A stretch of 64,000 nucleotides of DNA from Streptomyces sp. NBC_00708 (GTDB lineage Bacteria; Actinomycetota; Actinomycetes; Streptomycetales; Streptomycetaceae). The notes below the pieces were generated by a model. The model was given only the letters and a program-made list of their open reading frames with translations. It was not told the origin of the DNA and searched no databases. This document shows positions 38,698 to 61,881 of the stretch, one piece after another; the first letter of the stretch is position 1; each line of letters opens with the position of its first letter. Position numbers and translations under genes: made by a program. The stretch is from contig CP108997.1 in NCBI GenBank assembly GCA_036226585.1, positions 3,286,001 to 3,350,000 of the forward strand, given 5' to 3'.

Positions 38698-38715
38698 TGC
38701 CGGGTTCCGGCAATG
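38698..38715 (+). promoter_or_regulatory. 18-bp element upstream of flotillin operon 1
   Basis: TGCCGGGTTCCGGCAATG contains the inverted repeat TGCCGG/CCGGCA. It matches TGCCACGTTCCGGCAATG at 49252-49269, upstream of flotillin operon 2, at 16 of 18 positions. It is 85 bp before the NfeD-like gene. Confidence 0.55.
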
Positions 38716-38800: not shown

Positions 38801-39310
38801 GTGACCTTGTTTCTCGGTCTCGGCATCGCGGGGGTCGCCCTGCTCGCCCTGTCCCTGGTCTTCGACGGGATTCTGGAAGGCCTCTTCGGGGGCTTGCTGG
38901 AGGGCCTGTTCGGCGGGCTCGTCTCCCTTCCGGTGATCGCGGGCTTCCTCTCGATGCTCGGTTTCGGCGGCGCCATCGTGCTCGGCACGACCGGCGCCGG
39001 CACCCTCGCCGCCACCGCGGCCGGGGTCGCGGCCGGGCTGGTCGCCGCCGTACTGACCTGGCGGTTCAGCCGCGCCCTGATGCGGGACCAGACCGACGCG
39101 ACCCCGCGCAACGAGGACCTGGTCGGCACGTCGGGTTCGGTGGTCACCGCGATCCCGGCCGACGGCTACGGCGAGGTCCTGCTCCGCCTGGGCGGGCAGC
39201 TCGTCAAGCTGTCCGCCAAGAGCCCGGTACCGGTCGCCCGGGGGGCGGAGATCTGGGTCGAGGCGGCCCTCTCCAGCACCTCGGTCTCGGTCCGTCCCGT
39301 CGAACGCTGA
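38801..39310 (+). CDS. NfeD-like membrane protein
   Basis: A 169-residue protein. Two or three membrane segments (1-25, about 45-90) are followed by a C-terminal OB fold (from about 105: EDLVGTSGSVVTAIPADGYGEVLLRLGGQLVKLSAKS). NfeD proteins pair with flotillins and bind them through the OB domain. The N-terminal region has an internal repeat GLFGGLLEGLFGGL. GTG 38801 is used. The flotillin gene starts 69 bp downstream. Confidence 0.8.
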   Translation: MTLFLGLGIAGVALLALSLVFDGILEGLFGGLLEGLFGGLVSLPVIAGFLSMLGFGGAIVLGTTGAGTLAATAAGVAAGLVAAVLTWRFSRALMRDQTDATPRNEDLVGTSGSVVTAIPADGYGEVLLRLGGQLVKLSAKSPVPVARGAEIWVEAALSSTSVSVRPVER

Positions 39311-39379: not shown

Positions 39380-40825
39380 ATGAGTCCCGTAATGATCGCG
39401 ATCGTCGGAGTCGTCGTACTCCTCTTCCTGCTCGCCCTCGCCGTCATCACCCGTTACAAGGTGGCCGGCCCCAGCCAGGCGTTCATCATCACCGGCCGCC
39501 GGGGCAAGAAGTCCGTGGACCCGGTGACCGGGCGGACCAGCATCGACAACAGCGGCCAGAAGGTCGTCGTCGGCGGCGGCGTCTTCGTCGTGCCGTTCGT
39601 CCAGCAGAAGTTCACCCTGGACCTGTCCAGCCGGCACATCCCGGTCGCCGTGCGCGGCGCCGTCACCCTGCGCGGCGTCAAGGCGCACCTCGAAGGCGTC
39701 GCGATCGTCAAGGTCGGCGGCAGCGAGGACGCCATCCGGGCCGCCGCCCAGCGCTTCCTGCGCCAGCAGGACGGCATCGTCGGCTTCACCCAGGAAGTGC
39801 TCTCCGGTGCGCTGCGCGCCATCGTCGGCCGGATGTCGGTCGAGGACATCATCCGGGACCGCGCCGCGTTCGCCGGCCAGGTGGCGGAGGAGGCCGAGGC
39901 GAGCCTGTCCGGCCAGGGCCTGATCCTGGACGCCTTCCAGATCCAGGACATCACCACCGAGGGCTCCTACCTGGAGGACCTCGGCCGCCCCGAGGCCGCC
40001 CGCGCCAAGCAGGAGGCGGACATCGCGGAGGCCATCGCCCGCCGCGCCTCGGAGCAGGCCCGGCTGAAGGCCGCCGAGGAGATCGCGATCGCCGAGCGGA
40101 CCTTCTACCTGAAGCAGGCCGAGATCAAGGCCGAGACCGAGGCGGCCGCCGCCAAGGCCAACGCGGCCGGTCCGCTCGCCGAGGCGGCCCGTCAGCAGGA
40201 AGTCCTCACCGAGCAGGAGAAGGTCGCCGAGCGCCAGGCCGCGCTGACCGACCGCGAGCTCGACACCAAGGTCCGCAAGCCCGCCGACGCCGCCCGCTAC
40301 CAGGCCGAGCAGGAGGCGGAGGCCCGCCGCATCGCCCAGGTCAAGGAGGCCGAGGCAGCCGCCGAGCGCGCCCGGCTGACCGGTCAGGGCGAGAAGCTGC
40401 ACCGCTCCGCGCTCGCCGAGGCGGTGCGCATCGAGGGTGAGGCGGAGGCCGCGGCCATCGCGGCGCGCGGTTCGGCCGAGGCCGAGGCGATGCAGAAGAA
40501 GGCCGACGCCTTCGCGCAGTACGGCGACGCGGCCGTCCTGCAGATGCTCGTCGAGGTGCTGCCGCAGGTCGTCGCCAAGGCGGCCGAGCCGATGAGCGCG
40601 ATCGACAAGCTGACCGTCATCTCCACGGACGGCGCCAGCCAGCTGTCCCGTACGGTCACGGACAACGTCGCCCAGGGCATGGAGCTGCTGAGCTCCACCA
40701 CCGGGGTCGACCTCGCCGCCCTGCTCCAGAACCTCAAGGGCGCGGTGCCGAAGCCGGCCGAGCCGGTCGCCGAGGCCCCGGCGGCCCCGGCCGGGAAGAA
40801 CGGGAAGATCGAGATCAGCGACTGA
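39380..40825 (+). CDS. Flotillin (SPFH family), first copy
   Basis: A 481-residue protein: one N-terminal membrane segment (residues 4-24), the SPFH domain (about 30-190; GPSQAFIITGRRGKK, VAIVKVGGSEDAIRAAAQRFL, EEIVG-like LRAIVGRMSVEDIIRDR), then a long Ala/Glu-rich coiled coil (200-400) with EA repeats, and a flotillin C-terminus (VLQMLVEVLPQVVAKAAEP). It scaffolds membrane microdomains. It is transcribed with NfeD upstream, and the RCK-type regulator/antiporter pair follows after a palindromic terminator. Confidence 0.9.
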   Translation: MSPVMIAIVGVVVLLFLLALAVITRYKVAGPSQAFIITGRRGKKSVDPVTGRTSIDNSGQKVVVGGGVFVVPFVQQKFTLDLSSRHIPVAVRGAVTLRGVKAHLEGVAIVKVGGSEDAIRAAAQRFLRQQDGIVGFTQEVLSGALRAIVGRMSVEDIIRDRAAFAGQVAEEAEASLSGQGLILDAFQIQDITTEGSYLEDLGRPEAARAKQEADIAEAIARRASEQARLKAAEEIAIAERTFYLKQAEIKAETEAAAAKANAAGPLAEAARQQEVLTEQEKVAERQAALTDRELDTKVRKPADAARYQAEQEAEARRIAQVKEAEAAAERARLTGQGEKLHRSALAEAVRIEGEAEAAAIAARGSAEAEAMQKKADAFAQYGDAAVLQMLVEVLPQVVAKAAEPMSAIDKLTVISTDGASQLSRTVTDNVAQGMELLSSTTGVDLAALLQNLKGAVPKPAEPVAEAPAAPAGKNGKIEISD

Positions 40826-41492: not shown

Positions 41493-41494
41493 CC

Positions 41495-45703: not shown

Positions 45704-48004
45704 ATGCTGCGCATGACACGAACACCACGCTCATCGCCGCTGGACGGACGCGTACGGGCCTCGCGGCTCGCGGCGGCGGCGCTGGCCCTCGCCCTCGGCG
45801 TGGCCGGCCCCCTGACCCTGGACACCGGCGGACCCGCCCACGCGCAGCCGCGCCAGGGCGGCTCCCCCTTGCTCGATGAGACGTTCACCCAGGCGACGGC
45901 CCCGGAGTTCACCGGGGTCGGTTCGGCCTGCCTCACCGGAGCGCCCCAGGCCGGCGCCCTGCCGGGGCCCGGCAACCACCCGCTCGGAGGCTGCACGGTG
46001 GGCGTCGGCCCCGAACCGCCCAACGACGCCGCCCCGCGCGGCTATCTGCGGCTGACGGACTCCGCGACCGACCAGTCCGGCGCGGTCCTCTACAACCACG
46101 CGCTGCCCGCCGAGGACGGCCTCGACGTCACCTTCGACCAGTGGCAGTACGGCACCACCACGGGCGCCATCGCCCCGGCCGACGGCATCTCGTTCTTCCT
46201 GGTCGACGGCGAGGCGCAGCTGACCCGCCCCGGCGCGTTCGGCGGCAGCCTCGGATATGCGCAGAAGCTGCCGGACGACGACCCGGGCGCCGCGTTCCTC
46301 CCCGGCGTGGACCGCGGCTATCTGGGAGTCGGGCTCGACGTCCTCGGCAACTACTTCGGCGACTGGGAGCACCGGGGCAACGGCTGCCCGCCCGGCCGGC
46401 GCTCACCGGCGGGGACGACGTTCCGCGTGCCCGCGCCCGGGCCGAACATGGTCACGCTGCGCGGCCCCGGCGACGGCATCGAGGGGTACTGCTTCCTCAC
46501 CGCCACCACCAACAACTTCTCCACCACCGGGCCCTGGCCGTCGACCCTCCCCGGCCAGCTGCACGGGCCGGCCACCGAGGTGTCGAGCGACCCCGTCCAG
46601 GCCGAGCAGGACCTCGAGCCCTCGCGCCGGCGGGTGCACGTGGTGATCACCCCGGCGCCCGATCCGCAGGTCACCGTGTCCATCGACTTCAACGACGGCA
46701 ACGGCTCCCAGCAGGTCCTCCAGGCGGCTGCGCCGGACCCCGTACCGGCGACCTACAAGTTCGGGTTCGCGGCCTCCACCGGTCTGTTCACGGACACCCA
46801 CCTCATCCGCAATGTGGCCGTCCGCACCGAGCGGCCGCTGCCCCGGCTGAACCTCGTGAAGCAGGTCGGGGAGCCGTTGCCCGGTGACCTCACGGCCGGC
46901 TCGCAGGTGCCGTACGACTTCGTGGTCACCAATTCGGGCGGCACGACGATCGACGACCTCGCCGTCGACGACCCCAAGACCGGCCCGGTCTCCTGCCCCG
47001 TGAGCAGCCTCGCCCCCGGGGAGACCGTCACCTGCACGGCGACGTACACGGTGACGGCCGCCGACGTCACCAACGGCTCGATCGACAACACGGCCACGGC
47101 GTCCGGTACGTCGGGCGGGGAGCCGGTCACCTCACCGCCCTCCTCGGAGAGCGTGCCGATCGAGCGTGCGCCGGGCATCGAGGTCGAGAAGCGGGTGGAG
47201 ACCCCCGGCCCGTACGCGGTCGGACAGACGGTCACCTACGGCTACACCGTCCGCAACACCGGCGGGGCGGAGCTGACCGACGTGGCGGTGCACGACGACC
47301 ACGTCACGGACATCACCTGCGAGTCGGCCACACTCGCCCCGGCGGAGGAGGCCGGTGACAGCACCACCTGCACCGGCACCTACACGATCACCGCGGCCGA
47401 CGGTACGGCCGGCTCCGTGACCAACACCGCCACGGCGACCGGCACGGCGAACGGGGGGACCGTCACCTCGCCGGAGACGTATCAGACCGTCCCCGTCGGG
47501 CAGCCCCATCTGACGCTCCACAAGAAGGTCGTCTCCAAGGGCCCGTTCCGGGCCGGCACCGAGGTCCGGTACGCGTACACGGTCACCAACACCGGCAGCA
47601 CCCCGCTGCACGATGTGCACGTGGCGGACAACCGTGTCGCCACTGTGGTCTGTGACGCGACCTCGCTGGCGCCCGGGGCGAGCACCACGTGCCGCGGTTC
47701 CTACCGGATCACGGAAGCCGACATCGACCTCTGCCGGAGGGCCACCACCCGCAGCGGTGGCGGTGGCGGTGGCGGTGGCGGGGCCACCCTCACGTGCCGG
47801 ATCACCAACGTGGCCCAGGCCGGTGCCACCGACCCGCAGGGCGGAGAGATCGCCAGCGGGACCGCCTCGGCCACCGTCACGGTGAAGGCCACGCCCGAGC
47901 GTCCGAAGAAGCCCGGATGCGGCAAGCCCGGCAAGCCCGGGAAGCCCGGGAAGAGGGGCGGCGGTTGCCACAAGGACGAGAAGGAGCACCACAGCGGCGG
48001 CTGA
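45704..48004 (+). CDS. Secreted lectin-like protein with DUF11-type repeats
   Basis: A 766-residue protein. A signal peptide (ASRLAAAALALALGVAGPL) precedes a legume-lectin-like domain of about 330 residues (GYLRLTDSATDQSGAVLYN, DGISFFLVDG, GYLGVGLDVLGNYF). Three DUF11 beta-sandwich repeats follow at about 380, 500 and 610 (VTNSGGTTIDDLAVDD; VRNTGGAELTDVAVHDD; VTNTGSTPLHDVHVADN). The third contains a nine-Gly insert. The tail has KPG repeats and is His/Lys-rich. There is no sortase motif or C-terminal membrane segment, so it is released or held non-covalently. It may bind surface carbohydrates. A TATCT/TATGCT box overlaps the start; ATG 45713 is an alternative. Confidence 0.75.
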   Translation: MLRMTRTPRSSPLDGRVRASRLAAAALALALGVAGPLTLDTGGPAHAQPRQGGSPLLDETFTQATAPEFTGVGSACLTGAPQAGALPGPGNHPLGGCTVGVGPEPPNDAAPRGYLRLTDSATDQSGAVLYNHALPAEDGLDVTFDQWQYGTTTGAIAPADGISFFLVDGEAQLTRPGAFGGSLGYAQKLPDDDPGAAFLPGVDRGYLGVGLDVLGNYFGDWEHRGNGCPPGRRSPAGTTFRVPAPGPNMVTLRGPGDGIEGYCFLTATTNNFSTTGPWPSTLPGQLHGPATEVSSDPVQAEQDLEPSRRRVHVVITPAPDPQVTVSIDFNDGNGSQQVLQAAAPDPVPATYKFGFAASTGLFTDTHLIRNVAVRTERPLPRLNLVKQVGEPLPGDLTAGSQVPYDFVVTNSGGTTIDDLAVDDPKTGPVSCPVSSLAPGETVTCTATYTVTAADVTNGSIDNTATASGTSGGEPVTSPPSSESVPIERAPGIEVEKRVETPGPYAVGQTVTYGYTVRNTGGAELTDVAVHDDHVTDITCESATLAPAEEAGDSTTCTGTYTITAADGTAGSVTNTATATGTANGGTVTSPETYQTVPVGQPHLTLHKKVVSKGPFRAGTEVRYAYTVTNTGSTPLHDVHVADNRVATVVCDATSLAPGASTTCRGSYRITEADIDLCRRATTRSGGGGGGGGGATLTCRITNVAQAGATDPQGGEIASGTASATVTVKATPERPKKPGCGKPGKPGKPGKRGGGCHKDEKEHHSGG

Positions 48005-48076: not shown

Positions 48077-49162
48077 CTAGACCTCCTTGGCCGGCCAGTC
48101 GAGCAGCCGGGCTCCGATCACCGCGGTCTGGAGGGTGTAGCGGTGCATGGGGTCGGAGGGGTCGGAGCCGGTCAGCTGGTGAATGCGTTCCAGCCGGTAC
48201 GTGAGGGCCCGGACGCTCAGCGAGAGGCGGCGGGCGGTCTCGGCGGCGACACAGCCCGCGTCGAAGTACACCGCGAGCGTCCGCAGGAGCGGTTCGGCGC
48301 CTCCCCTGGCCTTCTGGAGCGGGCCGAGCTCGCTGCGCACGAGGTCCGCCATGGCCTGCCGGTCCCGGGTCAGCACCGGGTAGACCAGCAGGTCGGCGGC
48401 GTACAGCACGGGGTCGTCGAGGTCCATCCGGTCCGCCAGATCCAGCGCGTCCAGCGCCTCGTCGTACGACTGGACGACCCCGCCGGGGCCCCGGTGGGCG
48501 CGGCCCACCGCCACCCGGCCGCCGTCGGTCGCCGCGTGTGCCTGCTTCGCGAAGTAGCGCAGGACGTCGGGCTGGCTGCCGGGCGCGATGCACACCATCC
48601 GGCCGTCCTTCGACGTGAGCAGGATCTTGCGCCCGCCGAACCGGGCCAGCAGCGCCGACTCCACGTGGCGCGGGACCTGGTCGGTCTCGGTGTACGCCTC
48701 CGGGCCGGTGGCGACCGCGACGGCGTGGGCGCGGGAGAGGCGCAGCCCGAAGCGCGTGGCCCGTTCGGCGAGGCGGCCCAGGTCGCTGCGCCCGTACAGC
48801 AGGTCGTCGATGAACTCCCGCCGGGCCGCCTCCTCGCGGCGCACGGTGAGGCGCTGGGCGCGCTCGAAGCCGTCGGCGAAGGCGTCGACCACCTGCTCGA
48901 CCGCGGCCAGCACGCTGTCGGCGGACGCGGCGACCGATGCGGGGGGCGCGCCGGGGGCGGGGACCGGCCAGGCGGCGCGGGTCTCGGCGAGGTGCATGCG
49001 GACCAGGGCGCGGAGCTGGTGCCCGGCCTCGGCGGCCTGCCGGCCCAGGGCGCGGCGGGTCTCCAGCTCCTCGCGGGTGAGGCGCCGCCCCGAGACGGCC
49101 GCCTCGCCCAGTATCCGGGCGTATCCCTCCAGAAAGATGCCGGGAATCTCCGGTTCCGCCAC
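48077..49162 (-). CDS. PucR-type helix-turn-helix regulator
   Basis: A 361-residue protein. An N-terminal helical region (to ~140) precedes a central GGDEF-like domain (FIDDLLYGRSDLGRLAERATRFGLRLSRAHAVAVA...RVAVGRAHRGPGGVVQSYDEAL) and the C-terminal PucR HTH (LLRTLAVYFDAGCVAAETARRLSLSVRALTYRLERIHQLTG). GTG 49162 has GGAGGCGG upstream. It is divergent from flotillin operon 2, with an operator-like element 90 bp from its start, and is the best candidate for its regulator. Confidence 0.85.
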   Translation of the reverse strand: MAEPEIPGIFLEGYARILGEAAVSGRRLTREELETRRALGRQAAEAGHQLRALVRMHLAETRAAWPVPAPGAPPASVAASADSVLAAVEQVVDAFADGFERAQRLTVRREEAARREFIDDLLYGRSDLGRLAERATRFGLRLSRAHAVAVATGPEAYTETDQVPRHVESALLARFGGRKILLTSKDGRMVCIAPGSQPDVLRYFAKQAHAATDGGRVAVGRAHRGPGGVVQSYDEALDALDLADRMDLDDPVLYAADLLVYPVLTRDRQAMADLVRSELGPLQKARGGAEPLLRTLAVYFDAGCVAAETARRLSLSVRALTYRLERIHQLTGSDPSDPMHRYTLQTAVIGARLLDWPAKEV

Positions 49163-49251
49163 GCGTCCGCCTCCGTTCCTGTTCCGTCTCCGCCTTCTGC
49201 CCAACGCACGGGGGCCGGTGCCGGTGCCCGGCATCGAGGAACGGCGAACAT

Positions 49252-49269
49252 TGCCACGTTCCGGCAATG
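49252..49269. promoter_or_regulatory. 18-bp element upstream of flotillin operon 2 and the PucR gene
   Basis: TGCCACGTTCCGGCAATG lies in the divergent region. With one more base on each side it contains the inverted repeat ATTGCC/GGCAAT (49250-49268). It matches the element at 38698-38715 at 16 of 18 positions. Likely the PucR-type protein's operator. Confidence 0.55.
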
Positions 49270-49312
49270 CGATCGAGCGCCCCAGGATGACACGATCCGG
49301 TCAGCACCAACC

Positions 49313-49356
49313 GGGGGACCACGGGGGAAACACGGGGGTGCACGGGGGATCGGGGG
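49313..49356 (+). other. G-quadruplex-prone run in the flotillin-2 leader
   Basis: Five GGGGG tracts separated by loops of 5, 6, 5 and 3 nt lie on the plus strand, 115-158 nt before the first gene of the operon. The 308-bp divergent region 49163-49470 otherwise contains only the element at 49252-49269; no gene is seen. Confidence 0.65.
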
Positions 49357-49470
49357 AAGACCCGGCTGCCGCGGTGTCGTCGAGGGTGACGCCGCGGCAC
49401 CGGGGTCACCGCCCGGCCCGCGCGCAGGCGCCGGCAGCACCGCCGGCGGAACGGCAGGGGGTGGAAACCG

Positions 49471-50118
49471 ATGCGGGAATTCCTGGACGCGACGCTGTCC
49501 TTCCCGGCCGTGCTCTTCGCCGCGGCGCTGGTCGTCGTCATCGCCTTCTGGCTGCTGGTCCTGGTCGGCGCGGCCGACCACCACTCCTTCGACGCGGACC
49601 TCGACACCGATCTCGCGGGCGTCGGCGGCGTACCGGTCACCGTCTCGGTGTCCCTGATGGTCGCCGTCGGCTGGTTCACCGCGCTGACCGGTTCGGTCCT
49701 GGTGCACCGCTCGGGAGCCACCGGCCCCGTCCGCGCCGCGCTGGCCTGCGCGGTGCTCGCCGGGGCGCTGCTGCTCGCCTGGGGCGCGGTGCGGCTGCTC
49801 GTCCACCACTTCCGGCGCTACTTCCCCGACCAGCCTCCGCCATCGCGCCAGGACTTCCTGGGCCGGGTCTGCACGATCCGTACCGGCTCGGTCGGTTCGG
49901 ACTTCGGCCAGGCCGAGGTCGCCGCCGCCGACGGGTCGACCGCCATCGTCCAGGTGCGCCAACTGGCGCCCGCCGACGCGGAGCTGACCTCGGGGAGTGC
50001 GGGCCTGCTGTACGCGTACGACGAGGCCGGCGAGTTCTTCTGGGTCTCCGCGTACGACAAGGCGCTCGACCCGGGTCCGCCGCCCGCCGCGCTGCCGCCG
50101 CACGGCCGTACGGCCTGA
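49471..50118 (+). CDS. YqiJ/DUF1449-like membrane protein with OB fold
   Basis: A 215-residue protein. Three membrane segments (about 11-35, 58-78, 88-112) are separated by an acidic loop with ADHHSFDADLDTDLAG, the hallmark of YqiJ-like proteins. The C-terminal OB fold is FLGRVCTIRTGSVGSDFGQAEVAAADGSTAIVQVR. In E. coli YqiJ is encoded with the flotillin YqiK; here too the flotillin gene follows (132 bp). It probably anchors the flotillin assembly. Confidence 0.8.
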   Translation: MREFLDATLSFPAVLFAAALVVVIAFWLLVLVGAADHHSFDADLDTDLAGVGGVPVTVSVSLMVAVGWFTALTGSVLVHRSGATGPVRAALACAVLAGALLLAWGAVRLLVHHFRRYFPDQPPPSRQDFLGRVCTIRTGSVGSDFGQAEVAAADGSTAIVQVRQLAPADAELTSGSAGLLYAYDEAGEFFWVSAYDKALDPGPPPAALPPHGRTA

Positions 50119-50199
50119 AGGCTCCACCGTCCGCATCACCGCTCCTGCCGGCGCGGTGTGCCCGTCCGGCCTGCCCGGACGCTGTGCGCCGCCGCGCCG

Positions 50200-50215
50200 T
50201 GTTTCACGTGAAACC
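50200..50215. promoter_or_regulatory. parS: parS-like site
   Basis: The 14-bp palindrome GTTTCACGTGAAAC (50201-50214) is the exact Streptomyces parS core bound by ParB, with T and C as flanking bases. It is in the intergenic region before the second flotillin gene. Confidence 0.75.
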
Positions 50216-50250
50216 GCTCATTTCCCTTTTCTCAGCCGCCAAGGACTGTC

Positions 50251-52350
50251 ATGGAAGCCATCTCCTTGGGCCTCGGCCTGCTCATCGCCGTGGTCCTGCT
50301 CATCGCCGTAGCCGTGCTGCTGATCGTCACCCGGCTCTTCCGCAAGGTGGAACAGGGCAAGGCCCTGATCATCTCCAAGACCAAGAAGGTCGATGTGACC
50401 TTCACCGGCGCCGTCGTCCTTCCGGTGCTGCACAAGGCCGAGTCCATGGACATCTCGGTGAAGACCATCGAGATCCGCCGCACCGGGCGCGAGGGCCTGA
50501 TCTGCCAGGACAACATCCGCGCCGACATCCACATCACGTTCTTCGTCCGGGTCAACAAGACCGTCGAGGACGTCATCAAGGTCGCCCAGGCGATCGGCAC
50601 CGAGCGCGCCAGCGACAAGGTCGCCATCCAGGAGTTCTTCGCCGCGAAGTTCTCCGAGGCGCTCAAGACCGTCGGCAAGCAGCTGGACTTCGTCGACCTG
50701 TACACCAAGCGCGAGGAGTTCCGGGACCGGATCATCCGCGTCATCGGTACCGACCTGAACGGCTACCACCTCGACGACGCGGCGATCGACTTCCTGGAGC
50801 AGACGCCGATGGCGCAGCTCGACGGCGCCAACATCCTGGACGCCCAGGGCATCCGGAAGATCACCGAGCTGACCGCGATCGAGCACGTGCGCACCAACGA
50901 GTTCCAGCGCACCGAGCAGAAGGAGATCACCCGGCAGGACGTCGACGCCCGGGAGACCATCCTGGAGCTGGAGCGCCGGCAGGCCGAGGCCGAGATCAAG
51001 CAGCGCCGCGAGGTCGAGACGCTGCGGGCCCGCGAGGAGGCCGTGACCGCCCGGGTCCAGGAGGAGGAACGCCTCGGCGCCCAGGCCGCGTTCATCAAGA
51101 CCGAGGAGCAGCTGGGCATCCAGCGGGAGAACCAGGCCCGCGAGATCGCCGTCGCGCAGAAGAACCGCGAGCGGGTCATCGCCGTGGAGAACGAGCGCAT
51201 CGAGAAGGACCGGATGCTGGAGGTCATCGGGCGCGAGCGCGAGACCGAGCTGAACCGCATCGCCGCGACGAAGGAGGTCGAGGCGGAGCGCCGCGAGGTC
51301 GCCGACGTCATCCGCGAGCGCATCGCGGTGGACCGTACGGTCGCCGAGCAGGAGGAGTCCATCAAGACGCTGCGGTCGGTCGAGGAGTCCGAGCGCACCC
51401 GCAAGTCGGTCATCATCGCCGCCGAGGCCGAGGCGCAGGAGCAGCTGGTCAAGGACATCAAGGCGGCCGAGGCGGCGGAGGCCGCGGCCACCCACCGGGC
51501 GGCCGAGCAGCTCACGCTCGCCGAGGCCCGGCTGAAGACCGCCGACCTGGACGCCCAGGCGAAGCTGCGGCTGGCCGAGGGCATCCAGGCGGAGTCGGCG
51601 GCGCCCGGCCTCGCGGACGTCCAGGTGCGGGACGCGGCGGCGGAGGTGATCGAGAAGACGGGGCTCGCCGAGGCCGAGGCCACGTCCGCGCGGCTCCGGG
51701 CCGAGGCCGAGGGAGCCCGTCTCAAGGCCCTCGCGGACGCGGAGGGTACGCAGGCGCAGGCGACGGCCGACGCGGCGATGATCGGCGAGAAGCTGAAGGC
51801 GGAGGCCGCGGGCCTCACGGAGAAGGCGGCCGCGATGGCGGCGCTGGACGACGCGTCGCGCGGGCACGAGGAGTACCGGCTGCGGCTGGCCGCCGAGAAG
51901 GAGATCCGGCTCGCCGGTCTCGATGTGCAGCGGCAGGTCGCCGAGGCGCAGGCAACGGTCCTGGCCACGGGCCTGGAGAACGCGGACATCGACATCGTCG
52001 GCGGCGAGTCGGTCTTCTTCGACCGGCTGGTCTCGTCCATCTCGATGGGCAAGAGCCTGGACGGTTTCGTCGCGAACTCGGACACGGCGCAGGCGCTGGC
52101 CGGTCCGTGGCTGAAGGGCGAGTCCTCGTTCACGGAGGACCTGACGCGGGTGCTGTCGTCGGTGTCCACGGGCGATGTGCAGAACCTGACGGTGTCGGCG
52201 CTGCTGATGCGGATGATGGCTTCGCCGTCGTCCGGCGTCGGTGCGGACCAGGTCCGCGCGCTGCTCGACCACGCGAAGTCGCTGGGGATCGCTGATGTCC
52301 CGGTGGCCGGCCTGGCCCCGGCGGGCCTGAACGGTACGCCTGTCGGCTGA
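50251..52350 (+). CDS. Flotillin (YqiK-type SPFH), second copy
   Basis: A 699-residue protein. One membrane segment (6-28) precedes the SPFH domain (to ~200; EQGKALIISKTKKVDVTFTGAVVLPVLHKAE, ADIHITFFVRVNKTVEDVIK). A very long charged coiled coil runs from about 215 to 530 (RRQAEAEIKQRREVETLRAREEAV, IAVENERIEKDRMLEVIGRERETELNRI), followed by AEAEGARLKALADAEGTQAQATADAA and a C-terminal domain ending in GADQVRALLDHAKSL. This is the YqiK type, distinct from the shorter flotillin at 39380. AAGGA precedes the ATG. Confidence 0.9.
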   Translation: MEAISLGLGLLIAVVLLIAVAVLLIVTRLFRKVEQGKALIISKTKKVDVTFTGAVVLPVLHKAESMDISVKTIEIRRTGREGLICQDNIRADIHITFFVRVNKTVEDVIKVAQAIGTERASDKVAIQEFFAAKFSEALKTVGKQLDFVDLYTKREEFRDRIIRVIGTDLNGYHLDDAAIDFLEQTPMAQLDGANILDAQGIRKITELTAIEHVRTNEFQRTEQKEITRQDVDARETILELERRQAEAEIKQRREVETLRAREEAVTARVQEEERLGAQAAFIKTEEQLGIQRENQAREIAVAQKNRERVIAVENERIEKDRMLEVIGRERETELNRIAATKEVEAERREVADVIRERIAVDRTVAEQEESIKTLRSVEESERTRKSVIIAAEAEAQEQLVKDIKAAEAAEAAATHRAAEQLTLAEARLKTADLDAQAKLRLAEGIQAESAAPGLADVQVRDAAAEVIEKTGLAEAEATSARLRAEAEGARLKALADAEGTQAQATADAAMIGEKLKAEAAGLTEKAAAMAALDDASRGHEEYRLRLAAEKEIRLAGLDVQRQVAEAQATVLATGLENADIDIVGGESVFFDRLVSSISMGKSLDGFVANSDTAQALAGPWLKGESSFTEDLTRVLSSVSTGDVQNLTVSALLMRMMASPSSGVGADQVRALLDHAKSLGIADVPVAGLAPAGLNGTPVG

Positions 52351-52390
52351 CCGCGCTCCGTGGCCCGACCGCCCCACCCGGCCCCGTCCG

Positions 52391-52547
52391 TCCTCAATCG
52401 CCGGACGGGCTGGGTGGGGCCGGCCTCCCAAGTCCACCCGCACACCCAAGCCCGTCCGGCGTTCGAGGACACCTGGACGGCACGTCCCAGCCCGTCCGCA
52501 GATGAAACAGGCCCGCGGGCTTTCAAGCCCGTCCGGCGATTGAGGAC
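52391..52547. repeat. Inverted copies of a dispersed Streptomyces repeat
   Basis: The 21-nt sequence at 52391-52411 (TCCTCAATCGCC...) is the exact reverse complement of 52526-52546. A third copy at 52449-52469 differs from the latter at two positions, and a partial copy lies at 52489-52499. The unit AGCCCGTCCGGCGATTGAGG recurs widely in Streptomyces intergenic DNA (from memory). Confidence 0.75.
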
Positions 52548-52583
52548 ACCGCCCCAAGCCCCACCGCGAGGAGACCCGCACCC

Positions 52584-55500
52584 ATGGACCCCGTGACCCC
52601 TCCCACCGCCGGGGACTACGACGTCCTGCGGCGCCGCCTGAGCACCCACGCCACCGAACTCGCCCGCAGGGCCACCGCCCTCAACGCCCGCCGCACCGAG
52701 GCGTTCGGCTCCACCGGCCTCCGGCTGCTCGGCAGCGAGCAGATCCGCACCGCCCGCCCCTCCGTCCCCCGCGACCTCGTCGCGCTCGGCGGCGAGCTGC
52801 TGTTCGGGTTCGAGCGGGGGCCCGGCCAGCAGAGCGAACCCGCCGTCGACGACGTGCTCGCCCTGTACGCCGCCGATCTCACGCCCGGCACCGGCGCCCC
52901 GCTCACCGACGCCTCCTTCGTCCGTGAATTCGACGGACTGCACCGGTACTTCCGGGACGCGAGGCTGCTGCGGCTGCGCCGGACCGAGGGCCGCCTGCTG
53001 GCGGTCTTCCGTACCGGCGAGACCGCGAAGGACATCCGCGTCCTGCGCTGGGCGCTGAACCCCGACGGCTCCCCCGGCGCGTTCCTCGACGCGCGCGGCG
53101 AGCGCGACCACGTGTTCCCGCCGTCGCACGACTTCACCTGGACGACCGCCGGACGCGAGTCCCACGTCGCGGGCCGCCACCCGCACATCGCCCTCGGCAC
53201 CACGGCCGAGCTGTACGTCGACACGCTCGGCGGCACGCTCACCGTGAAGACCGTCAACGACACGGACACCCCGGACGGGATCTACGAGGAGCCGGTGACC
53301 GAACCGCTCCAGTCGCTGGCGGACGCCGAGGTCGAGTACGCCGAGCTGGGCCCGCTGGTCCTGCTGCGCGTGCGCCCGTACAAGGAGGAGGCGAGGCGCC
53401 ACCTCGTCTTCAACGCCCTGCTCGGGACCGTCACCCGGCTCGACGGGATCGGCCCGGCCTGTCAGCGGCTCCCGGAGGACCAGGGGATCATCTTCCCCGG
53501 CGGCTTCTACCTGACCACCGGCGAGGCCAGGACCTTCGACATCGCGCAGCCGCTCACGGACCCGGTCTTCGAGGAGGCCGTCCGCTCCCCGAACGGCGAG
53601 GACGTGCTCTACGTCTTCCGCTCCCGCCAGGACGGCCGGAGCCTGCTGCTGCCGTACAACGTGATCCGCCAGGAGGTCGCGACCCCGCTCCAGGGCCGGG
53701 GCCACGCGCTGCTCGACGACGGCACGCTGGTCGTGCTGCGCGACCCGGTGGAGGGCGGCGACGGGGGCGCGGCACGGGTCCATCCGTTGCAGCGCTGGCA
53801 GACCTCGTACGTCTCCGACACCTATGCCGCGTCCCGCCCGGCGGGCGAGGGTCCGCTCGCCCGGGTCGGCAACGCCGACCTCGTGCGCGGGATCTCCGAC
53901 TGCCTCGCGCTCGCACACGCCGCGTCGGAGACGACGCCGACGGCCGCCGTGTACGACCGGCTGGTCGCGGACTGCGTACGGGCGGGCGACCGCTACCACT
54001 GGCTGGGCGACGGCGAACTGGGCGGCCTGGCCGAGCCATTGGCCGAGCTGCGGGAGACCGCGCGCCAGGTGGTCGCGGAGTTCGAGGCCGTCCAGGAACT
54101 GACCCGGCAGGCCGCCGACGCGCTCACCGAGACCGCCGACCGCATCACCGCCCTGGTCCGCCGGGTCCGCGGCGAGGCCCCGCGCACGGCCGCCGAGTGG
54201 GTCGACCGCCTGACCGGACTGCGCGGCGCTCACGGCCACTTGGCGACCCTGGCCGAGATGCGGTACGCGGACACCGAACGCATCGCGGAACTCACCGCCA
54301 CCACCGCCGACGACATCGAGGCGGCCGGCCGCCGCGCGGTCGCCTTCCTGGCCAGGGACGACGCGTTCGCCGGCTACCACGAGGACATCGCCCGCCTCAC
54401 CGAGGAGGCCGCCGAGCTGCCCTCGGTGACCGACGCCGCCGCGCTCGGGGAGCGGCTGGCCGGCATGACGGACGGCCTGAGCACGGTCACGGACGTCGTC
54501 GCCGGTCTCGACATCGGCGACGGCGTGGTCCGTACATCGATCATGGAGCGCATCGCGGAGGTGCTCGGCGCCGTCAACCGCGCCCGTGCCGTGCTCGACG
54601 CCCGTCGCCGCAGCCTGGCGGACCACGAGGGCCGGGCCGAGTTCGCCGCCGAGTCCGCGCTGCTCGGGCAGGCCGTGACGGCCGCGCTGGCCGCCGCCGA
54701 GACCCCGGAGTCCTGCGACGAGCAGCTGGCCAGGCTGCTGCTCCAGCTGGAGAACCTGGAGGCGCGGTTCGCGGAGTTCGACGACTTCCTGGCGGAGCTC
54801 GCCGAGCGCCGGACGGAGGTGTACGAGGCGTTCTCGGCGCGCAGGCAGAGCCTTCAGGACGCCCTGGCCCGCCGCACCGAGCGCCTGGCGGAGTCCGCCG
54901 CGCGCGTGCTGGAGACGGTCGCCCGCCGCAGCGCGGCCCTTCCGGACGCGGACGCCGTCCACACCTACTTCGCCTCCGACCCGATGGTCGCGAAGATCCG
55001 CCGGACCGCCGAGGAGCTGCGGGGGCTCGGGGACACCGTGCGCGCGGAGGAGCTGGACGGGCAGCTGCTCGCCGCCCGCCAGGAGGCGGGCCGGGCCCTG
55101 CGCGACCGCAGCGAGCTGTACGCGGACGGCGGGTCCGTGATCCGGCTGGGCCGGCACCGGTTCGCGGTGAACACCCAGCCGTTCGAGCTGACGCTGGTAC
55201 CGCAGGACGACGGGCTCTCGTTCGCCGTCACCGGGACGGACTACCGGATGCCGGTGACCGATCCGGAGTTCGCCGCGACCCGCCCGTACTGGGACCAGAC
55301 GCTGCCCTCCGAGTCCCCGTCCGTCTACCGGGGCGAGCACCTGGCCGCCCGCCTCCTCGACGAGCACGGCGCGGACCGGCTGGCCGCCCTGGACGACGCC
55401 GGACTCGCCACGCTCGTCCGGGAGTCGGCGGCAGCCGCGTACGACGAGGGCCATCAGCGCGGCGTCCACGACGAGGACGCGACCGCGATCCTGGCCGCGC

Positions 55501-57470
55501 TCCTGCGGCTGCACGCGGAGGCCGGACTCCTGCGCTTCCCGCCCGCTGTCCGGGCCGCCGCCCAGTTGTTCTGGGCCCACGGCACGGACGAGGCGCGCCG
55601 TACCTCCTGGACGCGCCGCGCCCGCTCGCTGGCCCGCGCCCGGGAGACCTTCGGCCTCGCCCCGGCGATCGCCGCGCTCCAGGAGGAGTGGGCGTCGGAG
55701 ATCGGCGGCGAGAGCCCCCGGACCGTCGCCGCGTACCTCTTCGAGGAGCTGGCCGGCGGCCCCGAGGGTTTCGTGACCGGTGCCTCCGTCCGAGCGTTCC
55801 TGGACAAGTTCCGCCATGCGACCGGCACGTCGGCGTACGACGACGACCTCGCCGCGCTCGCGGACGACCTGCCGGCCCGGCGCCAGCTCGTGGAGGGCTG
55901 GCTCACCTCGTACGCCGGGGCGAGCGGCACCGAGATCGATCCGGGCGACCTGGCGGAGGCCGTCGCGGTGGAGCTGTGCCCGGAGCCGCTGCTCGCCCGC
56001 TACGAGGCCGATGCCCCGCTCACCGAGACCGTGGACGGGCTGCTGGGCGTCCACCCGCGCATCGAGCGCGGCCGGCTCACCGTACGGATCGACGAACTCC
56101 TCGCCCGCACCGAGGAGTTCCGCACCGCCGTCGTTCCCGGCTTCCGCGCCTACCAGCGGCGGCGGAACTCCCTGGTCGCCGCCGAGCGGACCCGGCTGCG
56201 GCTCGACGACCACCGGCCCCGGGTGATGTCCGCGTTCGTGCGCAACCGGCTGCTCGACGAGGTGTACCTGCCGCTGATCGGCGACAGCCTCGCCAAGCAG
56301 CTCTCCACCGCCGACGCCGACCGCCGCACCGACTCGCAGGGCCTGCTGCTGCTCGTCTCCCCGCCCGGCTACGGCAAGACGACGCTCATGGAGTACGTCG
56401 CCGACCGGCTCGGGCTCGTCCTCGTCAAGATCAGCGGGCCCAACCTGGGCCACGACGTGACCTCGCTGGACCCCGCGCAGGCGGGCAGCGCCACCGCGCG
56501 CCAGGAGATCGAGAAGATCAACTTCGCGCTGGAGGCGGGCAACAACACACTGCTCTACCTCGACGACATCCAGCACACCTCGCCGGAACTCCTCCAGAAG
56601 TTCATCCCGCTCTGCGACGCCACCCGCCGCATCGAAGGCGTGCGGGACGGCGAGCCGCGCACCTACGACCTGCGGGGCAAGCGGTTCGCCGTCTGCATGG
56701 CGGGCAACCCGTACACCGAGTCGGGCGCGCGCTTCCAGGTGCCCGACATGCTCGCCAACCGGGCCGATGTGTGGAACCTGGGCGAGGTGCTGTCCGGCCG
56801 CGAGGACGTCTTCGCGCTGAGCTTCGTCGAGAACGCGCTGACCGCCAACCCGGTCCTCGCCCCGCTCGCCGGCCGCTCCCGCGAGGACCTGGCGCTGCTG
56901 CTGCGGCTCGCCGACGCGGACCCCACGGCCCGCCCGGAACGGCTCGAACACCCCTACGCTCCCGCCGAGGTGGACCGGATCACCGCCGTCCTGCGCCATC
57001 TGCTGCGCGCCCGGGACACGGTGCTCGCGGTCAACGCCGCGTACATCGCGTCGGCCGCGCAGACGGACGCCACCCGCACCGAACCGCCGTTCCGGCTCCA
57101 GGGCTCGTACCGCAACATGAACCGGATCGCGGAGCGGATCGCGCCCGTGATGAACGACGCGGAGCTGTCCGCCGTCGTCGAGGACCACTACGCGGGCGAG
57201 GCGCAGACCCTCACCAGCGGGGCCGAGACGGCCCTGCTGAAGCTGGCCGCCCTGCGGGGCACGCTCACACCGGCCCAGAGCGAGCGCTGGGCCGCGCTCT
57301 GCTCCTCGTACGTCCGCACCCAGGCGCTCGGCGGGCCCGAGGGCGATCCGATGACCCGCGCCGTGGCCGCGCTCGGGCTGCTCGCGGACCGGATCGCGGC
57401 CGTCGAGACGGCGATCGGCCGCGCCGCCGATCCCCGGCACCTGCTGGCGCGGCACCCCGAGGACCGCTGA
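52584..57470 (+). CDS. Giant AAA ATPase of the flotillin operon ('DNA repair ATPase'-like)
   Basis: A 1,628-residue cytosolic protein. The N-terminal ~480 residues look beta-rich (FDGLHRYFRDARLLRLRRTEGRLLAVFRTGE, HPHIALGTTAELYVD). Residues about 490-850 are helical with coiled coil (ELRETARQVVAEFEAVQEL, NLEARFAEFDDFLAELAERR). The ATPase module at 1,240-1,560 has Walker A PPGYGKTT (1260-1267), Walker B LLYLDDIQH (Asp1327-1328) and AGNP (near 1375). Similar proteins are labelled 'DNA repair ATPase' in databases (from memory); I see no nuclease or helicase motif. GAGGAG precedes the ATG. It follows the flotillin by 233 bp of repeats. It probably remodels a partner at the flotillin domain. Confidence 0.8.
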   Translation: MDPVTPPTAGDYDVLRRRLSTHATELARRATALNARRTEAFGSTGLRLLGSEQIRTARPSVPRDLVALGGELLFGFERGPGQQSEPAVDDVLALYAADLTPGTGAPLTDASFVREFDGLHRYFRDARLLRLRRTEGRLLAVFRTGETAKDIRVLRWALNPDGSPGAFLDARGERDHVFPPSHDFTWTTAGRESHVAGRHPHIALGTTAELYVDTLGGTLTVKTVNDTDTPDGIYEEPVTEPLQSLADAEVEYAELGPLVLLRVRPYKEEARRHLVFNALLGTVTRLDGIGPACQRLPEDQGIIFPGGFYLTTGEARTFDIAQPLTDPVFEEAVRSPNGEDVLYVFRSRQDGRSLLLPYNVIRQEVATPLQGRGHALLDDGTLVVLRDPVEGGDGGAARVHPLQRWQTSYVSDTYAASRPAGEGPLARVGNADLVRGISDCLALAHAASETTPTAAVYDRLVADCVRAGDRYHWLGDGELGGLAEPLAELRETARQVVAEFEAVQELTRQAADALTETADRITALVRRVRGEAPRTAAEWVDRLTGLRGAHGHLATLAEMRYADTERIAELTATTADDIEAAGRRAVAFLARDDAFAGYHEDIARLTEEAAELPSVTDAAALGERLAGMTDGLSTVTDVVAGLDIGDGVVRTSIMERIAEVLGAVNRARAVLDARRRSLADHEGRAEFAAESALLGQAVTAALAAAETPESCDEQLARLLLQLENLEARFAEFDDFLAELAERRTEVYEAFSARRQSLQDALARRTERLAESAARVLETVARRSAALPDADAVHTYFASDPMVAKIRRTAEELRGLGDTVRAEELDGQLLAARQEAGRALRDRSELYADGGSVIRLGRHRFAVNTQPFELTLVPQDDGLSFAVTGTDYRMPVTDPEFAATRPYWDQTLPSESPSVYRGEHLAARLLDEHGADRLAALDDAGLATLVRESAAAAYDEGHQRGVHDEDATAILAALLRLHAEAGLLRFPPAVRAAAQLFWAHGTDEARRTSWTRRARSLARARETFGLAPAIAALQEEWASEIGGESPRTVAAYLFEELAGGPEGFVTGASVRAFLDKFRHATGTSAYDDDLAALADDLPARRQLVEGWLTSYAGASGTEIDPGDLAEAVAVELCPEPLLARYEADAPLTETVDGLLGVHPRIERGRLTVRIDELLARTEEFRTAVVPGFRAYQRRRNSLVAAERTRLRLDDHRPRVMSAFVRNRLLDEVYLPLIGDSLAKQLSTADADRRTDSQGLLLLVSPPGYGKTTLMEYVADRLGLVLVKISGPNLGHDVTSLDPAQAGSATARQEIEKINFALEAGNNTLLYLDDIQHTSPELLQKFIPLCDATRRIEGVRDGEPRTYDLRGKRFAVCMAGNPYTESGARFQVPDMLANRADVWNLGEVLSGREDVFALSFVENALTANPVLAPLAGRSREDLALLLRLADADPTARPERLEHPYAPAEVDRITAVLRHLLRARDTVLAVNAAYIASAAQTDATRTEPPFRLQGSYRNMNRIAERIAPVMNDAELSAVVEDHYAGEAQTLTSGAETALLKLAALRGTLTPAQSERWAALCSSYVRTQALGGPEGDPMTRAVAALGLLADRIAAVETAIGRAADPRHLLARHPEDR

Positions 57471-57499
57471 CCGTACCGATCTCCGGAAGGGAGCAAGGC

Positions 57500-59449
57500 A
57501 TGCTGGGACATGTGTCCTCCTCATTCCCCCAGCAACCCCAACCCTCCCCGCTCTCCGGCCACATGGTCGTCTGCGGGGACGACGCGCTCGCCCAGCGGCT
57601 CGCCGTGGAACTGCGGTACGTCTACGGGGAGCGGGTCACCCTCGTCCTGCCGCCGGAGCCGGGCGCGGCCAGGCCGGACGAGCCGCTGAGCGGGCGCGGC
57701 CGGGCCGCCGCGCTGTTCGGGCGGATGGCGTCCGCGATGAACCGCAACGGCGGGGGGCTGCCGCACGGTTCGGACGGGGACACCAACGCCGGGGTGGAGG
57801 CCGTGCGCATCCTCCAGGCCGCGGAGCCGTCCGACGAGGCGCTGGAGGAGGCGGGGATCTCCAGGGCGTCGGCGGTCGCCCTGGTCTACGACGACGACGA
57901 GCGCAACATCCGGGCCGCGCTGACCGCGCGCCGGCTCAACCCCCGTGTCCGGCTGGTGATCCGGCTCTACAACCGCAAGCTCGGCCAGCATCTGGAGACC
58001 CTGCTCGACCAGGCCGCCGCCGTCGCCTCCCCCGGGCTCGACCAGGCCGCGATCGACGCCTCCACCACGGTCCTGTCCGACGCCGACACCGCGGCCCCCG
58101 CCCTCGCGGCCACCGCGCTCGCCGGGTCGACCCGGGTGATCCGGGCGGAGGGCCTGTTCCTGCGGGCCGCCGAGCGCACCCCGCCCCGGGGCGGCCAGGT
58201 CGCCGACCCCGGCCTGTGCACGCTGGCCCTGCTCTCCTCCACCACGCACGACCCGGCCGGCGCGGAGGGCTCCGACAGCAGCGGCGCGGAGGGGCCGCAG
58301 CTGCTGCCGGACCCGGCGGAGATCGCCTCCGCGACCGGACGCGGCACGGTCGTCCTGGAGGCCGTCACCCAGTCGGGACCGGCCGCGCCCAAGGTCCGGA
58401 TGAGCGGCCGGAGCGCGCCGCTGAGCCAGTTCTTCTCGCGCCGGCTGCGGTGGTCGGCCCTCGGCGTCGGGCTGGCGGTCCTCGGGCTCGCGGTGGCCTC
58501 CACGGTCACCACGGGCGACAACGCCCTGCACGCCACCTACCTCACCCTGCTCGACCTGTTCGCCATGGGCGACCCGGCCATCGGGGACCCGACCGCCCGC
58601 CAGATCATCCAGATCCTCTCCGGTATCGCGGGCCTGATGCTGCTGCCGCTGCTGGTGGCCGGTGTGCTGGAGGCGTTCGGCTCGCTGCGCACCGCCTCCT
58701 CGCTGCGGCGTCCGCCGCGCGGCCTGTCCGGGCACGTGGTGCTGCTCGGCCTCGGCAAGATCGGCACCCGGGTCCTGGTGCACCTGCGGGAGCTGGGCAT
58801 CCCGGTGGTCTGCGTGGAGGAGGACCCGGAGGCGCGGGGCATCCCGGTCGCCCGGCGGCTGCACGTGCCGGTGGTCCTCGGTGACGTCACGGACGAAGGG
58901 GTGCTGGAGGCCGCCAAGATCAGCCGCTCACGCGGGCTCCTCGCGCTGACCAGCGCCGACACGACGAACCTGGAGGCCGCGCTGTACGCCCGCTCGCTGA
59001 AGCCGAATCTGCGGGTGACGGTGCGGCTGTTCGACGACGAGTTCGCCACGGCGGTCTACCGCACGCTGCGCACGGCGCACCCGCAGGCGATCACCCGGTC
59101 CCGCTCGGTGTCCCATCTGGCCGGGCCCTCCTTCGCGGTCGCGATGATGGGCCGGCAGATCCTGGGGGCGATCCCGGTCGAGCGGAAGGTGCTCCTGTTC
59201 GCCGCGATCGAGGTCGCCGGGCATCCCCAGCTGGAGGGCCGTACGGTGGAACAGGCGTTCCGCGCGGGCGCGTGGCGCGTCCTGGCCCTGGACGTGGCGG
59301 CGGCGGCCGGCGGGGCGGCCGGCGAGGGCAGCCTGGTGTGGAACCTCCACCCCGGCTATGTGCTCCGCCCGACGGACCGCGTGATCATCGCGGCGACCCG
59401 GCGGGGCCTCGCGGAACTCCTGGGCCGCCGGGCGCTGACGCGCCGCTGA
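57500..59449 (+). CDS. Two-RCK membrane protein, unusual ion channel-like
   Basis: A 649-residue protein. A degenerate N-terminal TrkA_N domain (SGHMVVCGDDALAQRLAVEL, without GxGxxG) runs to about 190. A membrane segment at about 317-336 and another at 369-394 flank a loop YLTLLDLFAMGDPAIGDP that could be a pore helix but lacks the TVGYG selectivity filter. The C-terminal TrkA_N domain (from 411) has a proper GLGKIG and EDPEARGI, and a TrkA_C-like end. GGAAGGGAG precedes the ATG, 29 bp after the ATPase gene. It may be a CASTOR/Pollux-type channel or an ion-flux sensor of the same operon. Confidence 0.75.
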   Translation: MLGHVSSSFPQQPQPSPLSGHMVVCGDDALAQRLAVELRYVYGERVTLVLPPEPGAARPDEPLSGRGRAAALFGRMASAMNRNGGGLPHGSDGDTNAGVEAVRILQAAEPSDEALEEAGISRASAVALVYDDDERNIRAALTARRLNPRVRLVIRLYNRKLGQHLETLLDQAAAVASPGLDQAAIDASTTVLSDADTAAPALAATALAGSTRVIRAEGLFLRAAERTPPRGGQVADPGLCTLALLSSTTHDPAGAEGSDSSGAEGPQLLPDPAEIASATGRGTVVLEAVTQSGPAAPKVRMSGRSAPLSQFFSRRLRWSALGVGLAVLGLAVASTVTTGDNALHATYLTLLDLFAMGDPAIGDPTARQIIQILSGIAGLMLLPLLVAGVLEAFGSLRTASSLRRPPRGLSGHVVLLGLGKIGTRVLVHLRELGIPVVCVEEDPEARGIPVARRLHVPVVLGDVTDEGVLEAAKISRSRGLLALTSADTTNLEAALYARSLKPNLRVTVRLFDDEFATAVYRTLRTAHPQAITRSRSVSHLAGPSFAVAMMGRQILGAIPVERKVLLFAAIEVAGHPQLEGRTVEQAFRAGAWRVLALDVAAAAGGAAGEGSLVWNLHPGYVLRPTDRVIIAATRRGLAELLGRRALTRR

Positions 59450-61458: not shown

Positions 61459-61881
61459 ATGGGCAGGATCGTGGTGGGCGTGGACGGCTCCGAGTCGTCG
61501 GTCAAGGCACTGCACTGGGCCGTGCGCCAGGCGGAGCTGACCGGTGACACGGTGGAGGCCGTCAACAGCTGGGAGTACCCCGCGACCAGCTGGGCGTCGA
61601 TGATGCCGGGCCTGCCGGAGGACTTCGACCCGCAGGCCATGGCCACGGTGTCGCTCACCGAGACGCTGGAGGAGGCGCTGGGCGCCCAGGGCGCCGCCGC
61701 CGTCAGCAAGGTCGTGGTGATCGGCAACCCGGCGCAGGCCCTGCTCGACCGGGCCGAGGGCGCGAACCTGCTGGTCGTGGGCGCGCGCGGGTACAGCGGC
61801 TTCAAGGCGACCCTGCTCGGCTCGGTCAGCCTGCACGTCACCCAGCACGCGTCGTGCCCGGTGACCGTCGTCCGCGCCTGA
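61459..61881 (+). CDS. Universal stress protein (ATP-binding type)
   Basis: A 140-residue UspA-fold protein. RIVVGVDGSESSVKALHWAVRQAE starts the fold. The ATP-binding motif G-2x-G-9x-G-S is complete in VVGARGYSGFKATLLGSVS. ATG 61459 is preceded by GGAGGCAG. It is monocistronic, ending in a strong hairpin. Confidence 0.9.
   Translation: MGRIVVGVDGSESSVKALHWAVRQAELTGDTVEAVNSWEYPATSWASMMPGLPEDFDPQAMATVSLTETLEEALGAQGAAAVSKVVVIGNPAQALLDRAEGANLLVVGARGYSGFKATLLGSVSLHVTQHASCPVTVVRA

Follow-up and report, generated by a model that had tools for sequence, protein, structure and literature searches.

A candidate PucR-type regulon that joins two SPFH operons to cation homeostasis in Streptomyces

Introduction

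The closest described relative of the system considered here is an operon combining a Band-7/flotillin protein, a YqiJ/YuaF-type protein and a coiled-coil/beta-propeller AAA+ protein, which Ravi et al. (2024) recognized by comparative genomics (PMC11237479). The passages of that paper on these operons also note abbreviated versions without PspA and propose ESCRT-like complexes. SPFH-NfeD pairs can form membrane cages, the structure of E. coli YbbK-YbbJ being the example in the relevant passage of PMC13086221, and an alkali-inducible flotillin has been described in Bacillus halodurans (Zhang et al. 2005, as cited in a passage of PMC4453477). Among PucR-type regulators, GabR of Corynebacterium glutamicum is described in PMC7652997 as an octamer whose targets are two 21-bp inverted repeats within a divergent promoter. 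Here we analyze a locus with related components from Streptomyces sp. NBC_00708 (contig CP108997.1, positions 3,286,001 to 3,350,000; this stretch of 64,000 nucleotides is referred to as the window). It includes a divergent gene for a PucR-type regulator, followed by genes for a YqiJ-like membrane protein, a flotillin, a giant ATPase and a membrane protein with two RCK domains.

An earlier note on this DNA had read these genes as a PucR-controlled operon in which the ATPase, recruited to a flotillin domain, couples ATP hydrolysis to gating or remodelling of the RCK protein, and knew of no characterised system with this composition. The last statement holds only for the five-gene set because the three-gene core has been described (PMC11237479, section on these operons). 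The YqiJ-flotillin-ATPase core is therefore not new. New here are a candidate operator for PucR, the proposed common control of two SPFH operons and an antiporter through it, and the RCK-pore-RCK protein. In our literature search, no paper found names DUF3686, the largest Pfam domain of the ATPase, and none brings together "DNA repair ATPase" and "flotillin"; among the matches listed for PucR, flotillin, antiporter and SPFH pairs, no title concerns this regulon.

We propose that the operon at this locus serves to maintain membrane domains in Streptomyces and is controlled by a PucR-type regulator, whose regulon would join two membrane-domain operons to cation homeostasis. We give this reading a probability of about 0.6.

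Results and Discussion

The YqiJ-flotillin-ATPase core

The three core genes share one direction of transcription and form a conserved unit. DUF3686 scores above its cut-off in 82 of 150 Streptomyces genomes, and a flotillin match is present in the same number, the two sets being identical by reading of the lists. Called clusters around the 82 ATPase genes include a flotillin at 81 loci, YqiJ at 59, PucR at 57 and RCK at 27; the sole locus without a called flotillin (L058) is truncated by the end of its contig. Outside Streptomyces the complete core occurs at 22 of 23 actinobacterial ATPase loci, the exception (L228) being a 5-kb contig which carries the ATPase alone. The view that flotillin and ATPase belong together is thus supported. 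Neither PucR nor RCK was called among the neighbours shown at these 23 loci, whose maps show up to seven genes upstream of the ATPase and up to six downstream. The non-Streptomyces loci are drawn from the top 80 among at least 536 relatives, so that distant phyla are nearly unsampled (L255, in which the gene caller found no gene, and L256 only). In a sample of the phylum, DUF3686 was found in 8 of 296 genomes, seven of them Streptomyces, with the window's own included, and one from another family.

The five-gene layout is confined to one 16-row Streptomyces clade of the ATPase tree (FastTree; ATPase calls under 1000 aa, as in L041, excluded). Conservation of gene order beyond close relatives, proposed in the earlier note as a test, is thus seen for the three-gene core and not for the five-gene order. 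The five-gene set is far beyond chance, because homologues keep the order in tens of genomes. At the fetched loci, genes were called by a simple codon-score method, which occasionally trims starts and splits or merges genes (L041, L075, L114). A few genes are counted twice since L154 overlaps L049 and L157 overlaps L041, and the pattern and matrix counts given below include the window itself.

The ATPase includes PF12458 (DUF3686) at residues 25-472 (E 3.4e-171), a full-length match of 570.1 bits against a cut-off of 25 (profile 1-448 of 448), followed by PF25472 (DUF7902) at 593-677 and PF00004 (AAA) at 1255-1332. Its Walker A motif, PPGYGKTT at 1260-1267, and the Walker B residues D1327-D1328 are invariant in an alignment of eight sequences (A1), whose farthest member is 40% identical to the window protein. 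Pfam and this alignment confirm the single AAA module, with Walker motifs near residues 1260 and 1327, that the earlier note describes. Among 7990 candidates scored, 4300 are homologues at E 1e-10 or better, and of the 120 relatives listed (P0007-P0126) most of those with a name are labelled "DNA repair ATPase". Yet the genomic context seen here is one of membrane scaffolding and ion transport and does not support this name; the recurrent neighbour families named by Pfam representatives, which do not cover all clusters, include no repair genes. A role in DNA repair, resting solely on the Pfam description and the database name, is doubted. A defence system was also considered and rejected, PADLOC returning only weak matches to the IetA ATPase (0.0032 and 0.0052).

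The model of the YqiJ-like protein has three transmembrane helices and then five strands in an OB-like barrel (AlphaFold2, pLDDT 88.8), and its best PDB fold is the NfeD C-domain 3wwv (Foldseek, E 2.5e-3, probability 1.00); the earlier note had described it as a membrane OB protein. It has no credible Pfam family match, and PDB sequence searches with the YqiJ and flotillin alignments gave no match. The window flotillin itself has no Pfam match at 0.01. A homologue from another family (L139), 45% identical to it, carries Band_7 at 1.4e-11, which indirectly identifies the window protein as a probable SPFH protein.

A candidate operator

The promoter shared by pucR and yqiJ carries two copies of a palindrome of about 21 bp. 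Both are conserved in the clade alignment and in PucR-RCK promoters where the core is missing, and 99 sites give the symmetrised consensus CATTGCCGG-N3-CCGGCAATG. The palindrome core also precedes a second NfeD-SPFH operon (NfeD2 and SPFH2 below) and, in other species, a Na+/H+ exchanger of the CPA1 family. When the plain pattern TGCC-N7-GGCA was counted from -300 to +60 of each gene, it was found before 57 of 71 PucR and 49 of 64 YqiJ genes (often the same divergent sites), before all 14 NfeD2 genes (window included) and before 12 of 18 CPA1 genes. Other families gave 11/84 (flotillin), 0/85 (ATPase), 0/15 (SPFH2), 1/17 (TrkA_C), 0/5 (SulP), 0/20 (LLM), 2/17 (TrpRS) and 0/14 (TerB), all other genes 26/1217, and genes of random regions 4/321. 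Four patterns with scrambled arms reached at most 1/71 for PucR, 2/64 for YqiJ, 0/18 for CPA1 and 0/14 for NfeD2. The NfeD2 and CPA1 counts are independent of the set in which the palindromes were discovered; those for PucR, YqiJ and RCK in the window's clade are not, because the discovery was made there. The CPA1 sites all begin between -142 and -162. Two of them (L044, L048) coincide with the site of the divergent pucR, in L057 and L157 pucR lies opposite with a site of its own, and the remaining eight CPA1 genes with the pattern do not directly face pucR.

At genome scale, 17 strict sites were found, four of them in the window, compared with three for the mirror pattern. The window holds five operator matches versus 1.81 expected; two of these, at 30012 and, inside a gene, at 45960, may be due to chance. 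The former, a strict copy at 30012-30026, precedes a small minus-strand gene (29498-29836) whose product is MerR-like by eye. The latter lies within the gene of a large DUF7507/DUF11 repeat protein (45800-48004) which adjoins pucR.

The regulator gene was listed as an open reading frame at 48077-49267 (minus strand). The clade alignment places its conserved start at GTG 49162, for a protein of 361 aa, while an alternative TTG start at 49267 would extend it across the conserved palindromes. Pfam assigns GGDEF_2 and HTH_30 (PF13556). A match at E <= 1e-60 is present in 111 of 150 Streptomyces genomes, including 79 of the 82 with the ATPase compared with 32 of the 68 others (Fisher values for this comparison ignore kinship), and a weaker PucR-like protein, 46-53% identical, occurs in 8 of the 21 non-Streptomyces genomes searched.

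Binding of PucR to the palindrome is predicted from sequence, and the palindrome might instead belong to another regulator, PucR being merely adjacent. L116 and L117 would fit such an arrangement, since they have no strong site despite a PucR match elsewhere in the genome. However, the pattern precedes pucR itself in most cases (the 57 of 71 above), and the two repeats of about 21 bp in a divergent promoter resemble the GabR sites as described in PMC7652997. Strong sites lie within 1250 bp before the flotillin at 71 of 81 loci. Of the ten others, L082-L085 have longer promoters, in which the alignment shows the sites at a greater distance; a contig end truncates L089 ahead of pucR, L075 has a split flotillin, and the remaining four are L056, L113, L116 and L117. 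No strong site was found before the core in either testable PucR-less Streptomyces genome (L056, L113), the third (G422, L058) having no called flotillin in its available stretch. Before YqiJ, the pattern is present in 28 of 34 named Streptomyces and at none of 23 non-Streptomyces genes (22 actinobacterial, one proteobacterial). We regard a different regulator as unlikely. The conserved candidate operator in the PucR/YqiJ promoter supports the control by PucR asserted in the earlier note. Together with the candidate regulator it also offers a direct genetic handle: one PucR and two SPFH operons in a tractable genus.

Ion transport in the neighbourhood

Besides the core and the synteny specific to single clades, families that recur near the 82 ATPase loci include NhaA (17), a CPA1 exchanger (11), a CPA2 exchanger (11) with its TrkA_C partner (8), a Na:Ala symporter (8), CitMHS/ArsB (6), CBS (9) and SulP (4). 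The second SPFH protein is found at 5 of these loci and its NfeD partner at 4. Ion transporter families or the TrkA_C partner occur at 38 of the 82 ATPase loci and at 14 of 37 RCK-centred loci. The window has, at 41022-42739, genes for a TrkA_C protein and for a member of the Na+/H+ exchanger family (Pfam). At a Nocardia rhizosphaerihabitans locus (L245:9237-15644), a gene for an NhaA-like antiporter lies directly 3' of the ATPase on the same strand.

The operon could instead encode a PSP-like machine that remodels the envelope under stress and is not specially linked to ions, the transporters being passengers of a variable accessory region. Precedents exist: according to the relevant part of PMC11237479, some bacterial versions are linked to PspA and a CesT/Tir chaperone, and the Pseudomonas aeruginosa bac operon, in the sections of PMC10948618 and PMC13086221 devoted to it, holds DUF2170, PspA, a short NfeD and an SPFH protein. 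In the window, Pfam found neither PspA nor CesT/Tir in 16 of the 17 called genes of 38801-63068 (61459-61881 was left out; PspA was not sought genome-wide). The CPA1 exchanger, however, bears the same pattern at a near-constant distance in those 12 of 18 cases, and 20 random regions of 20 kb each (321 genes) contain none of the transporter families, a small control for families picked after they had been seen. A PSP-like machine without an ion link is quite possible, though short of an even chance.

The RCK protein and the ATPase

Pfam finds TrkA_N in two stretches of the RCK protein, and its structure model predicts the order RCK1, first transmembrane helix (TM1), P-helix, TM2, RCK2. GYG or GFG is absent from the pore segment in all 60 aligned sequences, the window's included, and the GxGxxG nucleotide loop is present in RCK2 in all 60 and in RCK1 in none. 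These features bear out the two-RCK membrane protein with a filter-less pore-like loop described in the earlier note. With its pore between two RCK domains and no K+ filter, the protein is also of interest for electrophysiology.

The coupling of the ATPase to this protein, which that note suggests, is not supported. A channel complex, in which the flotillin domain recruits the ATPase and the latter gates or remodels the RCK protein, would account for the adjacency of the two genes on one strand, 29 bp apart, and for RCK genes lying within 20 kb of the ATPase at 33 of 84 loci, compared with about 0.6% per locus expected by chance. These lie in several arrangements (19 downstream on the same strand, 4 downstream on the opposite strand, 6 upstream opposite and 4 upstream same). 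Sixteen of the 33 belong to the window's clade and may represent one event; the others are scattered over the ATPase tree, with at least 15 changes between near and not near, among which the tree does not distinguish gains from losses. Against such a complex, RCK is commoner than the ATPase (132 versus 82 of 150 Streptomyces genomes): 55 of the 132 RCK genomes have no ATPase and 5 of the 82 ATPase genomes no RCK match. At the same syntenic site, RCK persists in three Streptomyces genomes with PucR and a YqiJ-like gene (L119, L121) or with PucR (L120) where flotillin and ATPase are absent, in L137 and L138 it is present with the core some 50 kb distant, and no RCK was called at any of the 23 non-Streptomyces actinobacterial loci. 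A dedicated RCK-ATPase pair was therefore rejected, and the ATPase-gated channel appears distinctly unlikely. Because its co-occurrence with the ATPase across genomes is weak and it persists without the core, the RCK protein is tied to the neighbourhood and the regulator and is not obligate to the ATPase.

A model for the regulon

In the membrane-domain maintenance operon that we propose, PucR would bind the palindrome and regulate itself. By analogy with GabR, it would sit on the paired palindrome and activate the operon once ligand-bound; most likely it would activate the operons that the palindrome precedes on binding a small ligand, under salt or pH stress. We infer ion stress as the signal from the CPA1 operator and the neighbourhood only. 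Flotillin and YqiJ would form an SPFH-NfeD membrane scaffold on which the giant AAA protein docks, using ATP to remodel or re-fold membrane proteins. The AAA protein would supply the energy, which agrees with the ESCRT-like complexes proposed by Ravi et al. The RCK protein would be a separate nucleotide- or ion-sensing protein of cation homeostasis, which joined the gene row in this clade and is probably co-expressed with the core, not driven by the ATPase.

A bolder version is that one PucR signal controls two SPFH-NfeD scaffolds, the misnamed giant AAA remodeller, in some species the Na+/H+ exchanger and in this clade the filterless RCK-pore-RCK protein, cation transporters being assembled or protected in flotillin domains by an ATP-driven machine. 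We hold this version only tentatively and consider it rather unlikely in full.

Several points weigh against the proposed regulon, which is built on comparison of sequences and predicted PucR binding. In addition to the two site-less loci with a PucR match (L116, L117), the pattern precedes only 6 of 65 RCK genes, and all six face a divergent gene (L114, L142, L144, L147, L149, L150), the sites in L147, L149 and L150 being those of a divergent NfeD2 gene. The co-occurrence of RCK and ATPase across genomes is itself weak (p 0.047 on listed places, kinship ignored). The pattern is absent before NhaA (0/20), CPA2 (0/20), AGCS (0/11), CitMHS (0/9) and CBS (0/14) genes; the proximity of these families is therefore not explained by the regulon, and they were not counted as members. 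With a weight matrix trained on the PucR, NfeD2 and CPA1 sites, 61 of 1145 "other" genes passed a threshold passed by 2% of control genes, above the level set. Family counts are not independent because divergent genes share sites, PucR and YqiJ above all, and the genomes counted are related. Finally, the window genome lacks a close CPA1 relative (32% at best), so that the exchanger link comes from other species.

Features of the window

The coordinates of the five genes, the operator copies and the second operon are collected in Table 1. The open reading frames reproduce the five genes, their strands and the gaps of 132 bp (YqiJ-flotillin), 233 bp (flotillin-ATPase) and 29 bp (ATPase-RCK) exactly as first described.

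Table 1. Features of the locus and of the second NfeD-SPFH operon (window coordinates).
Feature	Position	Strand	Basis
Candidate operator, third copy, 88 bp before second NfeD-SPFH operon	38698..38712		pattern scan
NfeD-like partner of second SPFH protein	38801..39310	+	no Pfam match; named by position beside SPFH gene
Second SPFH protein, Band_7 and Flot domains	39392..40825	+	Pfam
PucR-type regulator	48077..49162	-	Pfam GGDEF-like domain and PucR HTH_30; start from clade alignment
Candidate operator site 1, TGCCGGTGCCCGGCA	49219..49233		alignment, pattern counts
Candidate operator site 2, outer arms CATTGCC...GGCAATG, no mismatch	49249..49269		alignment
YqiJ/NfeD-like membrane protein, 215 aa	49471..50118	+	AlphaFold2, Foldseek
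Flotillin (probable SPFH protein), 699 aa	50251..52350	+	via homologue L139
Giant ATPase, DUF3686-DUF7902-AAA, 1628 aa	52584..57470	+	Pfam, alignment
RCK1-2TM (P-loop without GYG)-RCK2 membrane protein, 649 aa	57500..59449	+	Pfam, model, alignment

A perfect palindrome, GTTTCACGTGAAAC, lies at 50201-50214 in the YqiJ-flotillin gap; we take it to be parS-like. The genome has 18 such sites, every one at 3.26-3.82 Mb of the contig (C1), and of loci L039-L178 none but L105, a close relative, carries it in this gap. A sigma-70 promoter search at the locus gave no promoter-like site, a terminator search gave one terminator-like site (minus strand) versus 1.4 in shuffles, and Rfam had no match within window positions 36000-64000. 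Farther along, at 61965-63068, a single protein combines a MerR helix-turn-helix with a PP2C phosphatase domain.

Comparison with known systems

The operon of Ravi et al. has the same three core genes as the window. It differs in that its account (section 19 of PMC11237479) includes no PucR, operator or RCK partner, and in that PspA and CesT/Tir, linked to some of its versions, are missing from the window genes tested. The P. aeruginosa bac operon, which comprises six genes and is supported by reverse transcription PCR, shares the pairing of a short NfeD with an SPFH protein (BacC and BacD/PaFlo3). It starts instead with DUF2170 and PspA and has a predicted sigma-54 site (operon descriptions in PMC10948618 and PMC13086221); the word "ATPase" is absent from the main texts of both papers. 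In E. coli YqiJK and B. subtilis YuaFG (SPFH2-NfeD2; Hinderhofer et al. 2009, PMC2636767) an NfeD-like gene and a flotillin gene likewise form one operon, but "ATPase" is absent from the main text and PucR and RCK do not appear in its passages on these genes.

The RCK protein is about 11-18% identical to the proteins of the GsuK, TrkA and CASTOR/DMI1 structures. It has the nucleotide loop of RCK-gated K+ channels (in RCK2) but not their GYG/GFG selectivity filter. According to the model, its two-helix pore sits between two RCK domains, unlike the arrangement in GsuK, TrkA rings or the CASTOR/DMI1 gating rings. In CASTOR/POLLUX/DMI1 a filterless pore precedes the RCK region, whereas the pore of the window protein, also filterless, is predicted to lie between the two. 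As for the regulator, GabR, as presented in PMC7652997, is a local regulator of gamma-aminobutyrate use and has no GGDEF-like domain; it shares with the window both the divergent position of the regulator gene and the two 21-bp inverted repeats in the common promoter.

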